Shown piece after piece: positions 58,502 to 62,521 of a DNA stretch of 64,000 nucleotides. The stretch is from Microtetraspora malaysiensis. Lineage in GTDB: Bacteria; Actinomycetota; Actinomycetes; Streptosporangiales; Streptosporangiaceae. The notes beneath the pieces were generated by a model, which searched no databases, was not told the DNA's origin, and worked only from the letters and a program-made list of their open reading frames with translations. Location of the stretch: positions 310,001 through 374,000 of the forward strand of contig NZ_BBYJ01000008.1 in NCBI RefSeq assembly GCF_001528665.1, written 5' to 3'. The translations under genes and the position numbers were made by a program. How positions within the stretch are numbered: the first letter of the stretch is position 1; every line of letters starts with the position of its first letter.

Positions 58502-59251
58502 CTAGGCGGTCGCGGCGGGTTCCGGTCGGCGGACGGCCTGCTCGTAGCGTTCGAGCAGGAGCGTGACGAGCTCGGGGGCCGGGCCGAGGACATCGGCGAC
58601 CCGGTCCGCGCCGGCCGCCAGCGTGTCGCGGCGGACCTTGTCCGCGAAGTGGCCGGGGGCCAGCAGATAGGGGGCGACGACCACCCGGGGCGCTCCGGCG
58701 CGCGACAGCCGTACGACCTCGTCCGCGGGGGCCGGGGCGGCGGCCGAGGCGTAGGCGGCGGTCACCGACCACCAGGAGCGGCGCCGCGCCCAGGAGCGCG
58801 CCACCCGGGCCACCACGGCATTGGCGCGGGGGTCGCTCGAACCGGCGGAGACCAGCACGACCGCCGTCTCGGGGTCGCCCGCCTCGACCCTGGCCTCCGC
58901 CAGGCGGCGCTCCAGGGCGGCGACCAGCAGCGGGTGGGGGCCGAGCGTCGGCCCGAGCCGGGCCCGCAGGAGAGGGCGGCGGGCGGACGCCTCCCGCAGC
59001 GCGGCCGGAATGTCCACCCGGCTGTGGTAGGCCGCCGTGAGCAGCAGCGGCAGCACGACGGCCTCGTCCAGCCCCGAAAGGGCTCGGGCGAGGGTCGGCG
59101 GCGCGTGGTCCAGGTAGGCCGTCCGCACGTCCAGGTCGGGCCGCGCGAGCCGTACGCCGTCGAGCAGGGCCTCGACCGCCGTGGCGGCGCGCGGGTCGCG
59201 GGACCCGTGCGCCACGGCGATCAGCGGCGGTGCGGTCGGATGGGCGTTCAC
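58502..59251 (-). CDS. Sirohydrochlorin chelatase (CbiX/SirB family)
   Basis: A 249-aa protein with the class II chelatase fold in two halves. First half: LIAVAHGSRDPRAATAVEALLDGV with the metal His, and VVLPLLLTAAYHSRVDIP with the second His. Second half: VVLVSAGSSDPRANAVV and VVVAPYLLAPGHFADKV. It would insert Fe into sirohydrochlorin to make siroheme, the cofactor of the sulfite reductase encoded upstream in this operon; cobalt chelation is the alternative. GTG start at 59251, about 50 bases after cysH. Confidence 0.88.
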   Translation of the reverse strand: MNAHPTAPPLIAVAHGSRDPRAATAVEALLDGVRLARPDLDVRTAYLDHAPPTLARALSGLDEAVVLPLLLTAAYHSRVDIPAALREASARRPLLRARLGPTLGPHPLLVAALERRLAEARVEAGDPETAVVLVSAGSSDPRANAVVARVARSWARRRSWWSVTAAYASAAAPAPADEVVRLSRAGAPRVVVAPYLLAPGHFADKVRRDTLAAGADRVADVLGPAPELVTLLLERYEQAVRRPEPAATA

Positions 59252-59301
59252 GGGCGGCTCTTCCAGGTCTCCTCTGGCGCGGACGGGGCGGCGACGGGCG
59301 G

Positions 59302-60030
59302 TCAGAGGTGGATGCCGCACTCGATCTTGCCGAGCCCGGCCCACCGGCCGCTGCGCGGGTCCTCGCCGGGCGCGACCCGCCGGGTGCAGGGCGCGCACCC
59401 GATCGAGGGGTAGTCGTCGTAGTGCAGCGGGTTGATCAGCACCCCGTTGTCGGCGATGTAGTTGTCGACCTCCTCCTGGGTCCACCGCGTGATCGGGTTG
59501 ATCTTGACCATCTGGCGCTTGGCGTCCCACTCGACGACCTTGGTGTTCGCCCGGGTCGGCGACTCGTCGCGCCGGATGCCCGAGACCCAGGCGAGGTACG
59601 GTTCGAGCGCCCGGTTGAGCGGCTCCACCTTGCGCAGGTAGCAGCACAGGTCGGGGTTGCGGCCGTGCAGCCGGGGCCCGAGGTCGCGGTCCTGCTCCGC
59701 GACCGTGCGGGACGGCGTCACGTTGATCACGTTGACGTTGTAGACCGCCTCGACCGCGTCACGGGTGCCGATCGTCTCGGCGAAGTGGTAGCCGGTGTCG
59801 ATGAACAGCACGTCGACGCCGGGCTTGACCCGGCTCACCAGGTCGATCAGCAACGCGTCGCTCATCGAGGAGGTGAGACAGAGGCGGTCGCCGAACGTGG
59901 CCGCCGCCCACCGGATGATCTCGCGGGCGGGCGCGTCCTCAAGGAACCGCGCGGCGGACTCGACGATGCTCTGCAGGTCGAGCACGCCGCGCTGGCGTTC
60001 AAGACCTTCCTCTATCTCCACCAGGGTCAT
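59302..60030 (-). CDS. cysH: Adenylyl-sulfate (APS) reductase, CysH family
   Basis: A 242-aa enzyme reducing activated sulfate to sulfite. FGDRLCLTSSMSDALLIDLVSR begins the PP-loop fold, and VLFIDTGYHFAETIGTRDAV follows. The paired cysteines LCCYLRK and IGCAPCTRRV bind a [4Fe-4S] cluster, which marks the APS-using type rather than the PAPS-only type. The catalytic ECGIHL is at the C-terminus. GAGGAG precedes ATG 60030. In the operon leader peptide - sulfite reductase - small CxxC protein - cysH - chelatase. Confidence 0.95.
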   Translation of the reverse strand: MTLVEIEEGLERQRGVLDLQSIVESAARFLEDAPAREIIRWAAATFGDRLCLTSSMSDALLIDLVSRVKPGVDVLFIDTGYHFAETIGTRDAVEAVYNVNVINVTPSRTVAEQDRDLGPRLHGRNPDLCCYLRKVEPLNRALEPYLAWVSGIRRDESPTRANTKVVEWDAKRQMVKINPITRWTQEEVDNYIADNGVLINPLHYDDYPSIGCAPCTRRVAPGEDPRSGRWAGLGKIECGIHL

Positions 60031-60314: not shown

Positions 60315-61994
60315 TCACTTGAGGTCCGCCTCGTCGGCCCGGTGGACCCACTCGGAGAACGTCTCGCCGTCGTTCTTCTGCTTCTCGAAGTTGCGCACCA
60401 CGCGCTCCACGTAGTCGGGGAGCTCCTCCGCGGTGGCCTTCAGCCCGCGGACCTTGCGGCCGAAGTTGGGGTTCAGCCCGATCGAGCCGCCCAGGTGGAC
60501 CTGGAAGCCCTCGACCTGCTCGCCCTCGTCGTTCACCACGAGCTGGCCCTTGAGCCCGATGTCGGCCACCTGGATGCGGGCGCAGGAGTTCGGGCAGCCG
60601 TTGACGTTGATCGTGAGCGGCTCGGCGAAGTCCGGCAGCCGGGCCTCCAGCTCGTCGATCAGCCGGGACGCGGTCGCCTTGGTCTCGACGATCGCGAGCT
60701 TGCAGTACTCGATGCCGGTGCAGGCCATCGTCTGGCGGCGGAACGTGGACGGGGTGACCCGCAGGTCGGCCGCCTCCAGCTCGGCGACGATCGACTCGAC
60801 CCGGTCGGGCGCGACGTCGAGGATGACCATCTTCTGCTCGACCGTGGTGTGGACCCGGCGGGAGCCGTGCCGCTCGGCGATGTCGGCGATCCGGTGCAGC
60901 GTGTCGCCGTTCACCCGGCCCACCCTGGGCGCGAACCCGACGTAGAAGTTGCCGTCCTTCTGCGGGAAGACGCCGACGTGGTCGCGGCGGCCGCCGCGCG
61001 GCTCCTCGGGAGCGGGTCCGTCGGGCAGCCGGTAGCCGAGGTACTCGGTCTCCAGGATCTCGCGGAACCGCTCCGCGCCCCAGTCGTTGATCAGGAACTT
61101 GATCCGGGCGCGGTGGCGGAGCCGGCGGTAGCCGTAGTCGCGGAAGATCCCGCAGACTCCGGCCCACACCTCGTGCACCTGCTCGGGCCGGACGAACGCG
61201 CCGAGCCGCTTGGCGAACATCGGGTTGGTGGACAGCCCGCCGCCGACCCAGACGTCGAATCCGGCCTCGCCGTCGCGGACCACGCCGACGAACGCGATGT
61301 CGTTGATCTCGTGGACCGTGCACTGCGCGGTGCATCCGCTGATCGCGGTCTTGAACTTGCGCGGCAGGTTGGAGAACGCCGTGTCGCCGATGTACCGGGT
61401 GGCGATGTCGTCGATCTGGGCGGTGCCGTCGATCACCTCGCCGGCGTCGATCCCGGCGAGCGGGCAGCCCATGATCACGCGTGGCGTGTCGCCGCACGCC
61501 TCGGTCGTGGACAGGCCGACGGCCTCCAGGCGCTTCCAGATGTCCGGGACCGACTCGATCTCGACCCAGTGGAGCTGGATGTTCTGCCGGTCGGTGATGT
61601 CGGCCGTGCCCCTGGCGTACTCGTTGGAGATGTCGGCGATCGTCCGGAGCTGGTCCAGGTCGAGCCGACCGCCGTCGATGCGCACGCGGAGCATGAAGTA
61701 GCGGTCGTCGAGCTCCTCCGGGGGCAGGACCGCGGTCTTGCCCCCGTCGATCCCAGGCCTGCGCTGCGTGTAGAGGCCGTACCAGCGCATGCGGCCGCGC
61801 AGGTCGGCGGGGTCGATCGAGTCGAACCCGTGCTTGGAGTAGACGTCGATGATCCGCTGACGGACGTTGAGCCCGTCGTCGGCCTTCTTGTTCTCCTCGT
61901 TCTTGTTCAGCGGCTCACGGTAACCGAGAGCCCACTGGCCTTCGCCGCGCGGGCGCTTGTGGTGGCGGTTCGCCGGGCGGGCCGGGGTGCTCAT
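60315..61994 (-). CDS. Ferredoxin-dependent sulfite (nitrite/sulfite) reductase
   Basis: A 559-aa siroheme/[4Fe-4S] enzyme reducing sulfite to sulfide by six electrons. The cluster cysteines are TMACTGIEYCKLA and NGCPNSCAR; the two ferredoxin-like half domains and the nitrite/sulfite-reductase motif RTIADISNEYARGTADITDRQNIQLHW (GTADITDRQNIQLHW core) are present, as is KTAISGCTAQCTVHEIND. The N-terminal HHKRPRGEGQWALG start is typical of actinobacterial SirA/NirA proteins. AAAGGA precedes ATG 61994. Preceded by a cysteine leader peptide and attenuator. Confidence 0.94.
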   Translation of the reverse strand: MSTPARPANRHHKRPRGEGQWALGYREPLNKNEENKKADDGLNVRQRIIDVYSKHGFDSIDPADLRGRMRWYGLYTQRRPGIDGGKTAVLPPEELDDRYFMLRVRIDGGRLDLDQLRTIADISNEYARGTADITDRQNIQLHWVEIESVPDIWKRLEAVGLSTTEACGDTPRVIMGCPLAGIDAGEVIDGTAQIDDIATRYIGDTAFSNLPRKFKTAISGCTAQCTVHEINDIAFVGVVRDGEAGFDVWVGGGLSTNPMFAKRLGAFVRPEQVHEVWAGVCGIFRDYGYRRLRHRARIKFLINDWGAERFREILETEYLGYRLPDGPAPEEPRGGRRDHVGVFPQKDGNFYVGFAPRVGRVNGDTLHRIADIAERHGSRRVHTTVEQKMVILDVAPDRVESIVAELEAADLRVTPSTFRRQTMACTGIEYCKLAIVETKATASRLIDELEARLPDFAEPLTINVNGCPNSCARIQVADIGLKGQLVVNDEGEQVEGFQVHLGGSIGLNPNFGRKVRGLKATAEELPDYVERVVRNFEKQKNDGETFSEWVHRADEADLK

Positions 61995-62084
61995 GAGGGC
62001 GTCCTTTGATCCGAGGGATGCGAAACGGGCCGGGAGAAAAACCGGGCGAAGGTCACGCACGGCGCGACCCCGGACGCGTGCCTC

Positions 62085-62100
62085 AGGCGGCCGCCCGCCT
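62085..62100 (-). repeat. Second hairpin in the sulfite reductase leader
   Basis: AGGCGG-CCGC-CCGCCT, a 6-bp stem about 90 bases before the sulfite reductase start; it may add to leader folding, but no T-run follows. Confidence 0.35.
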
Positions 62101-62118
62101 CATCGTCGAGTGCGGGGG

Positions 62119-62151
62119 CGAAAACGAAAAAGGACGCCTGCTCACGCGCCC
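62119..62151 (-). terminator. Attenuator terminator of the sulfate assimilation operon
   Basis: On the minus-strand transcript GGGCGC (62151-62146) pairs with GCGUCC (62137-62132; one G-U) around an 8-base loop, followed by a U-rich UUUUUCGUUUUCG run. It lies 24 bases past the leader peptide stop and well before the sulfite reductase gene. Confidence 0.7.
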
Positions 62152-62171
62152 ACTGTCAGAAAAGATGGGCG
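62147..62171 (-). promoter_or_regulatory. Antiterminator hairpin competing with the attenuator
   Basis: CGCCCA (62171-62166) pairs with UGGGCG (62152-62147) around a 13-base loop. The right arm is shared with the terminator's left arm, so only one hairpin can form. A ribosome at the leader stop would cover CGCCCA and favour termination; a ribosome stalled at the Cys codon would leave it free. Confidence 0.6.
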
Positions 62172-62175
62172 ACGA

Positions 62176-62259
62176 TCAACGGGCGTCGATACAGATGGCG
62201 CTGCGGACACGCAGAAGGTCGACGTGGCGTCGCACGACGAGCAACGGGTCCGCTGGCAT
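62176..62259 (-). CDS. Cysteine-responsive leader peptide upstream of sulfite reductase
   Basis: A 27-aa peptide whose C-terminal part RRHVDLLRVRSAIC followed by four residues matches the actinobacterial 'putative leader peptide' consensus RHVDLxRVxSAxC found before sulfur-assimilation genes. The single Cys is codon 23 of 27 (UGU, 62193-62191), close to the stop. ATG 62259 lies seven bases after TATCGT and is leaderless. It likely couples cysteine supply (charged tRNA-Cys) to transcription of the operon via the hairpins just downstream. Confidence 0.85.
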   Translation of the reverse strand: MPADPLLVVRRHVDLLRVRSAICIDAR

Positions 62260-62266
62260 GGAGCAA

Positions 62267-62295
62267 ACGATACCCGGGGCGTCCGTGATGTCCAA
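62267..62295 (-). promoter_or_regulatory. Promoter of the sulfate assimilation operon
   Basis: TTGGAC (62295-62290), exactly 17-base spacer, TATCGT (62272-62267), then seven bases to the leader-peptide ATG, so the transcript starts at or beside the AUG. Confidence 0.75.
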
Positions 62296-62386
62296 GTTAG
62301 GTTTCACCATGTGGACGAAACGCGCATGACATCTGGACGACATGCGCCCATGTGAGCGGCCCGCGGGACGCCCGGCCGGGCGCGGG

Positions 62387-62521
62387 TCAGCCCTGGCTGA
62401 TCCAGTTCTGGGCGGGCTCGTTCGCGCCGGGCAGGGCGGGCGGTTCGTGGTGCTGGCAGTCGCACCAGGAGTCGCCGCGGCAGTTCTCGTGCCGCCGGTC
62501 CTTGCAGGCGTCGCAGATCAT
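62387..62521 (-). CDS. Small cysteine-rich protein (44 aa)
   Basis: A 44-aa protein with CDACKDRRHENCRGDSWCDCQHH: seven Cys/His-rich positions suited to a small zinc knuckle. GGGGGA lies 4-5 bases before the ATG. I recall very similar short proteins in many streptomycetes, annotated as hypothetical. It is transcribed toward the sulfur operon but separated from its promoter by about 90 bases, so it may belong to the same region without being part of the operon. Function unknown. Confidence 0.75.
   Translation of the reverse strand: MICDACKDRRHENCRGDSWCDCQHHEPPALPGANEPAQNWISQG

Follow-up and report, generated by a model that had tools for sequence, protein, structure and literature searches.

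Cysteine leaders are widespread in the class Actinomycetes. The closest described system is mycobacterial: a leaderless small ORF lies ahead of nirA/Msmeg_4527 (Shell 2015, PMC4633059), and the accessible text of Seliverstov 2005 (PMC1262725) describes the mycobacterial cys leaders as being without conserved terminator hairpins. These leaders are described as translational, and the work on them is cited in PMC9094748 and PMC9031893. A cysteine attenuator with a terminator has been predicted ahead of cysS in Rhodobacterales, as uORFC-8-2 (PMC8632094). In trp-type and actinobacterial ilvB attenuators (PMC1262725, PMC13236596, PMC10272879), a ribosome that stalls or reaches the stop codon is reported to select the anti-terminator or the terminator; an ilvB-II uORF attenuator has been described (PMC10272879), and the ORF of ilvB leaders overlaps the terminator hairpin (PMC1262725). 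None of eight Streptomyces lividans leaders is assigned to cysteine in the accessible text of PMC8079986, and no cysteine leader was found in the accessible parts of PMC4833913 and PMC2965389.

We analysed a 64-kb stretch of Microtetraspora malaysiensis DNA (the window) in which a leader ORF on the minus strand lies ahead of a sulfite reductase gene, sir. The nirA/Msmeg_4527 leader, for which a leaderless start is reported, likewise lies ahead of a sulfite reductase gene. Two presumed mycobacterial leaders in our sample (L145 and L146) have RRH(V/I)D...C in common with the window leader, with the Cys at His+11. By contrast with the mycobacterial leaders, the window leader contains one Cys and lacks the run of Cys codons that marks a mycobacterial polycysteine attenuator; it scores 22.4 bits against the model of the Ms4527A Cys-rich leader (NF042936), under the cut-off of 45, and it is followed by an intrinsic terminator whose 3' arm can also pair with leader codons (helix 1:4). 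By its description, uORFC-8-2 resembles the window in having uORF Cys codons in the first stem, two stems, a U-run and presumed read-through on stalling, but it belongs to another phylum and another gene and has two tandem Cys codons, mostly UGC (PMC8632094). The proposed choice between anti-terminator and terminator by a ribosome at the stall site or at the stop is that of trp-type and ilvB attenuators. Unlike in those systems, the leader codons of the window would form the 5' arm of one terminator-like stem, a second stem would serve the stop state, there is one sensor codon, and the peptide is strongly conserved.

We consider it likely that the window contains a ribosome-mediated, cysteine-responsive transcription attenuator of the sulfite-reduction operon. 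A preliminary description of the locus had suggested that such an attenuator was new for this leader family. A literature search, with most subscription papers outside it, found no intrinsic-terminator attenuator reported for the family, but the Rhodobacterales cysS uORF is a predicted cysteine uORF with a terminator. The peptide family is known; a terminator-based attenuator with its switch strand inside the leader ORF looks new. Such a three-state RNA would allow transcription-translation coupling to be tested directly in high-GC actinomycetes, and the fixed geometry of the leader and its invariant UGU codon raise the question of whether cysteine is sensed by the codon alone or with the nascent chain.

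A leader ORF, a terminator and overlapping helices upstream of sir

The promoter, the 27-codon ORF, both hairpins and the U-run proposed in the preliminary description all lie where it had placed them. The features of the locus are as follows.

62267-62295, minus strand: promoter; -35 TTGGAC (62295-62290), 17-nt spacer, -10 TATCGT (62272-62267)
62176-62259, minus strand: leader ORF, 27 codons and stop; ATG at 62259, peptide MPADPLLVVRRHVDLLRVRSAICIDAR
62191-62193, minus strand: sensor Cys codon UGU (codon 23)
62182-62187, minus strand: region 1, GACGCC, leader codons 25-26; partner of region 4
62166-62171, minus strand: region 2, CGCCCA, 5' arm of the putative anti-terminator 2:3
62146-62152, minus strand: region 3, UGGGCGC, arm common to 2:3 and the putative terminator 3:4
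62132-62138, minus strand: region 4, GGCGUCC, 3' arm shared by the terminator-like stems 1:4 and 3:4
62127-62131, minus strand: U5 tract of the terminator
62094-62116, minus strand: hairpin H4, CCCGCACUC-GACGAU-GAGGCGGG, 3' of the terminator
62084-62089, minus strand: region 5, CGCCUG, also able to pair with region 4 (CAGGCG)
62002-62007, minus strand: Shine-Dalgarno AAAGGA of sir, from the sequence and alignment A1
60315-61994, minus strand: sir, ferredoxin-type sulfite/nitrite reductase, first structural gene (Pfam NIR_SIR, 203.7 bits)
59302-60030, minus strand: cysH-like PAPS/APS reductase, downstream of sir (Pfam PAPS_reduct, 159 bits)
58502-59335, minus strand: CbiX-type chelatase, downstream; the upper coordinate is not a fixed start (Pfam CbiX, 114.5 bits)

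The leader ATG lies only 7 nt past the -10 hexamer, making a leaderless start plausible. In a consensus scan of positions 61900-62500, a single promoter (shuffles 0.0, sd 0.1) and a single terminator (shuffles 0.3, sd 0.5) were found, the latter being the terminator listed above. The scan recovered the proposed TTGGAC-17-TATCGT promoter one base over, as TGGACA-16-TATCGT, and its columns are conserved over 81 loci, every one of which has T at -35 and G at -33 relative to the leader ATG. The peptide family is indeed a known one: the leader scores 30.8 bits against NCBIfam NF042934, "putative leader peptide" (cut-off 27), an entry of type cis_reg_atten that is a 19-position peptide model and holds no RNA element. 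No Rfam family matched the 64-kb window over its gathering score. A sulfite reductase, a PAPS/APS reductase and CbiX fit sulfite reduction with its sirohaem cofactor, and the three genes presumably form one operon.

The anti-terminator arms had been given as CGCCCA (62171-62166) and UGGGCG (62152-62147), and the terminator arms as GGGCGC (62151-62146) and GCGUCC (62137-62132) followed by U5 (62131-62127); we found both pairs. With 6 bp, one of them G-U, and -11.2 kcal/mol, the terminator stem is a short one. Folding of the 72-nt RNA 62190-62119 gave -28.1 kcal/mol (z -3.3; 1/200 shuffles as good), with a minimum-energy fold in which a 6-bp helix joining leader codons 25-26 to GGCGUC closes the 2:3 hairpin. 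The two-hairpin model was largely right, but it overlooked this 1:4 helix, whose region 1 lies within the ORF. Ahead of sir, cysH and CbiX, the locus has a leader codon, UGU23, for the amino acid that the operon would ultimately supply, an intrinsic terminator with a U-tract between leader and gene, as judged by sequence, and an exclusive anti-terminator that is predicted to be chosen by ribosome position, in a manner that depends on the footprint.

Two further observations concern the region 5' of the promoter hexamers. Over the 81 loci there is a conserved CC at -55/-54 and a GGACC-like sequence at -46 to -42 from the leader ATG. Just 5' of the leader promoter, inspection by eye found a small Cys-rich ORF, MICDACKDRRHENCRGDSWCDCQHHEPPALPGANEPAQNWISQG, at 62521-62387 on the minus strand.

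The leader is conserved ahead of sir

We compared the window with 80 of 540 sir relatives, giving 81 loci, and with a wider set of 80 loci, 40 hand-picked from 121 order genomes and 40 hand-picked from 112 matching class genomes. Microtetraspora and Nonomuraea were checked to be Streptosporangiaceae, order Streptosporangiales. Twenty-six of the 81 loci are Nonomuraea, told by a short distance from the leader stop to sir. Alignment A1 holds 54 of the 55 loci outside Nonomuraea (L071, with a shorter leader, was excluded), and alignment A2 holds 23 order leaders ending VG, VA or IG. The labels Nocardiopsis-like, Thermomonospora-like and mycobacterial are ones that we presume from peptide type.

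A leader lies ahead of sir at 81/81 loci, window included, and at 74/80 wider loci, for a total of 155/161 actinomycete loci. The search pattern found no leader at six wider loci (L136, L151, L152, L153, L155 and L163), which may be misses of the pattern. The presence of the leader at all 81 loci, the conserved promoter columns and the conservation of the U-run argue against chance, although the species are related and the locus counts are not independent.

We built a covariance model of the RNA element from 37 sequences with a U-run. The model has one match in the genome of the window and one in each of 61/121 order genomes, all 61 just upstream of sir (compared by eye). In the class sample, 9/148 genomes matched; six are in the family of the window, and the other three matches are weak (E 0.0016 to 0.009), one beside a sir match and two not. 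In these samples, the element therefore looks tied to sir and nearly confined to Streptosporangiales. NF042934 matched in 50/60 class genomes sampled, so that the peptide family is broader than the RNA element.

Leader codons can pair with the terminator arm in all 54 aligned relatives

We next consider the helices in A1, with controls in which the arms were slid out of register. The 1:4 helix (GACGCC/GGCGUC) is paired in 324/324 cells with 0 breaks (slid controls at most 68%), and the sir tree places 1 two-sided and 8 one-sided changes on it, i.e. 9 pairing-preserving events. It is the best-conserved helix and the sole one never broken in the 54 relatives. The terminator 3:4 is paired in 303/324 cells, with breaks on 10 branches (slid at most 77%). 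For 2:3, 242/301 cells are paired (80%), with breaks on 10 branches; a control slid by two columns reached 83%, so the value of 80% is not above control. In the 37 relatives with a U-run, by contrast, pairing was 100% for 1:4 and 98.5 and 99.0% for two 2:3 helices, and 2:3 is weakly conserved outside them. The pairs in the U-run group are conserved rather than covarying, and column shuffles within it add little because the pairs hardly vary.

Helices past the terminator, which had been overlooked along with the peptide selection and the invariant UGU described below, are also conserved in A1. Region 4 with region 5 (4:5) is paired in 243/283 cells with 17 breaks (slid at most 41%), and H4 in 390/423 cells with 30 breaks (slid at most 66%); the tree places 6 two-sided events on H4 and 0-3 on its slid versions. 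Some of the breaks in 2:3 and 4:5 may be due to alignment. Region 6 pairs with the Shine-Dalgarno in 236/293 cells (slid at most 64%), and region 4 pairs with the Shine-Dalgarno in 303/378 cells. The 4:5, H4 and Shine-Dalgarno pairings are not explained by termination. Most of the 54 relatives have a hairpin with a GACGAY-like loop between the terminator and sir.

A U-run, defined as four or more consecutive U no further than 9 nt from the terminator arm, is present in 37/54 aligned relatives outside Nonomuraea. The other 17/54, and 26/26 Nonomuraea, lack a 4-U run 3' of the arm and keep the leader and 1:4. Because 1:4 and the leader persist where the U-run is absent, termination cannot be the sole output in those groups. 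Eleven loci with the leader and 1:4 but without a 4-U run (L021, L023, L026, L031, L036, L037, L038, L040, L045, L046 and L079) are Streptosporangium, Planobispora and Planomonospora; there, either the terminator has been lost or the output is different.

Pairing of 1:4 extends beyond A1. In A2, the 23 Nocardiopsis-like leaders have 174/184 cells paired, against at most 86/162 in slid controls. In A1, region 1 reads GACGCC or a GACGUC-like sequence; most A2 leaders have AACGUCGG there, with matching changes in region 4. For the 77 leaders together, 454/462 cells are paired (arm-shuffle mean 424, maximum 435), and 4/6 pairs have changed on both sides. Most of the two-sided changes come from one between-group split, so the independent events are few; separate two-sided cases are L045 in A1 and L111 and the L090/L097/L099 type in A2. 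In Nonomuraea, where the arm (GCGUCGCA or GCGUCGCG) was located by motif, 26/26 loci retain 7 or 8 of the 8 pairs, counting G-U as paired. Taken singly, 1:4 was significant (p <= 0.05) at 35/81 Streptosporangiaceae loci and 30/40 loci of the wider order, and it was not detected in the class outside the order (0/34). Single-locus significance is poor because 6-bp matches are common in GC-rich RNA, and we therefore rely on the alignments and on the change between groups.

Ribosome position is predicted to select between three RNA states

We folded the RNA with the ribosome represented as a mask. In line with what toeprints generally show, the footprint edge was placed at nt 79 for UGU23 in the A site and at nt 94 for the stop codon in the A site. 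The ribosome is reported to cover up to 12 nt past the stop (PMC4833913); our mask extends 10 nt past it, near that value. In the window, 1:4 had a probability of 0.998 with no ribosome. With a ribosome stalled at Cys23, 2:3 had a probability of 0.986 and 3:4 of 0.002, whereas with the ribosome at the stop 3:4 had a probability of 0.996. These predictions agree with the mutual exclusivity that had been proposed for the two hairpins. Among the 37 U-run relatives, region 4 was paired without a ribosome in 37, open on stalling in 36 and paired at the stop in 35. All three states were obtained for 34/37 U-run relatives and 11/17 relatives without the run, compared with 116/1480 dinucleotide shuffles (maximum 9/40 for one leader). 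With the stall edge at nt 78, 80 and 82, region 4 was open in 37, 28 and 16 of 37, respectively, indicating that the logic works best if the footprint does not extend past about nt 80. The states are those of equilibrium folding, not of co-transcriptional kinetics.

From these sequences and folds we infer the transcription start, translation, stalling, termination and cysteine response of the attenuator. RNA polymerase would start at or beside the leader AUG, with a ribosome following. When charged tRNA-Cys is scarce, the ribosome would wait with UGU codon 23 in its A site, covering region 1 and leaving region 2 free; 2:3 would pair, region 4 would be largely single-stranded, no terminator would form, and sir would be transcribed. 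When cysteine is plentiful, the ribosome at the stop would cover regions 1 and 2, and 3:4 would form beside the U-tract, stopping transcription. Since the terminator arm also pairs with region 1, RNA with no ribosome, or from which the ribosome has gone, would close 1:4 over 2:3 in a terminator-like stem that ends at the U-tract, and transcription would again stop. The three states would amount to two alternative terminator-like stems with one common 3' arm, both of which only the Cys stall escapes.

Selection on the leader peptide ends at an invariant UGU codon

The number of Cys per leader among the 81 Streptosporangiaceae leaders is one in 46 and two in 35. By the standard of trp or his leaders, a single Cys codon is a weak sensor. 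The spacing from His to Cys is exactly 11 residues in 155/155 leaders, found with search patterns that did not require His+11, although the pattern for the wider set required a Cys within the last ten residues. UGU encodes the Cys at His+11 in 155/155 leaders (152/155 if the first Cys some residues past the motif is taken instead). The other Cys codons in these leaders are 69 UGC and 25 UGU, and those in 80 sir genes are 620 TGC and 37 TGT.

We counted codon changes by simple parsimony on a tree of 78/81 leaders (L058, L070 and L071 excluded). Over codons 10-23, synonymous events outnumber non-synonymous ones by 70 to 9 (dN/dS about 0.06). At codon 24 all 19 events are non-synonymous, and codons 25-26 show 1 synonymous and 3 non-synonymous events. 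These counts indicate that the amino acids are held through the sensor Cys, that codon 24 is free, and that the next six bases are held, which is what the 1:4 helix would require. The C-terminus of the leader varies by group: DAR, RNVG, or a stop directly after the Cys.

As in arrest peptides, conserved residues lie at a fixed distance from the putative stall site. The fixed His-Cys spacing and the invariant UGU suggest more than plain codon sensing; peptide conservation and codon choice are not obviously explained by a plain codon sensor, and the nascent chain might contribute. A tentative reading, which the sequences make possible though not probable, is that the leader is a nascent-chain-assisted single-codon cysteine sensor, with the same sensor wired to different outputs. 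HVDxxRxxSA would lie in the exit tunnel as UGU enters the A site, and the ribosome would pause unusually hard at UGU when Cys-tRNA is low; the output here would be a double terminator whose switch strand is the leader's own post-Cys codons. If true, this reading would account for three things: a single codon is enough, that codon is constantly UGU while most other leader Cys codons are UGC, and the peptide stays conserved from gene to gene and from family to family. For the groups compared here, the simplest view would be one sensor with different outputs.

Alternatives to transcription attenuation

The leader or region 4 might instead control access to the Shine-Dalgarno or start codon of sir, with the terminator secondary. 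Such translational attenuation has been reported for mycobacterial cysteine genes (PMC13236596, citing Canestrari 2020), and it would suit the 17/54 relatives and 26/26 Nonomuraea that keep 1:4 without a U-run, as well as the potential of regions 4, 5 and 6 and the Shine-Dalgarno to pair (4:5, 6:SD and 4:SD). In equilibrium folding with and without a stalled ribosome, however, stalling is not predicted to increase access to the Shine-Dalgarno, and we regard this alternative as improbable here. In the 54 leaders outside Nonomuraea, the median accessibility of the Shine-Dalgarno was 0.35 in both states (up in 3, down in 7), and the start codon opened on stalling in 3 and closed in 12. In 24 Nonomuraea leaders, Shine-Dalgarno access rose in 4 and fell in 9, but the start codon opened in 11 and closed in 1; in 23 Nocardiopsis-like leaders, start-codon access was up in 1 and down in 1 (the Thermomonospora-like group was left out of the start-codon folding). 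A translational layer received no support from this equilibrium folding beyond the partial start-codon effect in Nonomuraea. We think it very unlikely that termination in the leader depends on Rho, with ribosome position setting it and the hairpins only shaping access to the RNA. Rho has been proposed for the mycobacterial cys leaders, which are described as lacking terminators (PMC1262725), the loops of regions 2-3 look pyrimidine-rich by eye, and relatives without a U-run exist; against this, a U-run abuts the stem in 37/54 relatives, window included, and on general grounds a stalled ribosome should leave more RNA, rather than less, open to Rho.

The strong amino-acid selection on codons 10-23 (70 synonymous against 9 non-synonymous events) would fit a peptide that acts in trans after its release, with attenuation incidental, and a leader peptide with a trans function, peTrpL, has been reported (PMC7298713). 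However, that selection ends at the Cys codon, as the 0 synonymous and 19 non-synonymous events at codon 24 indicate, and the C-terminus differs between groups, so we give a released peptide scant credence. That a DNA-binding regulator acting at the promoter exerts most of the control, and the leader little, seems similarly remote: the conserved bases past the hexamers, at about -55 to -41 relative to the leader ATG, are possibly a regulator site, but such a site leaves the conserved leader, the invariant UGU and the 1:4 pairing unexplained.

Other leaders in the same genome

Three further NF042934 matches lie elsewhere in the M. malaysiensis genome, two over the cut-off and one under it. The second leader, KRRAVDFCRVATALC (L001:1480-2866; G000:C39), lies ahead of a DUF4395 gene and of a gene that by eye is sulfurtransferase-like; judged by eye, CCUGA at the end of this leader could form pairs with UCAGG at the Shine-Dalgarno downstream. 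The third, ERLHVDLCRVNGDLC (L003:1450-2950; G000:C11), lies ahead of a gene of the sodium:dicarboxylate symporter family (SDF), perhaps a cystine or dicarboxylate carrier. The fourth, ARLHVDLCRLAAGLC (L004:1480-3049; G000:C38), is the one under the family cut-off, and the gene downstream of it has 2-oxoacid:ferredoxin oxidoreductase domains, an unexpected neighbour for a cysteine leader.
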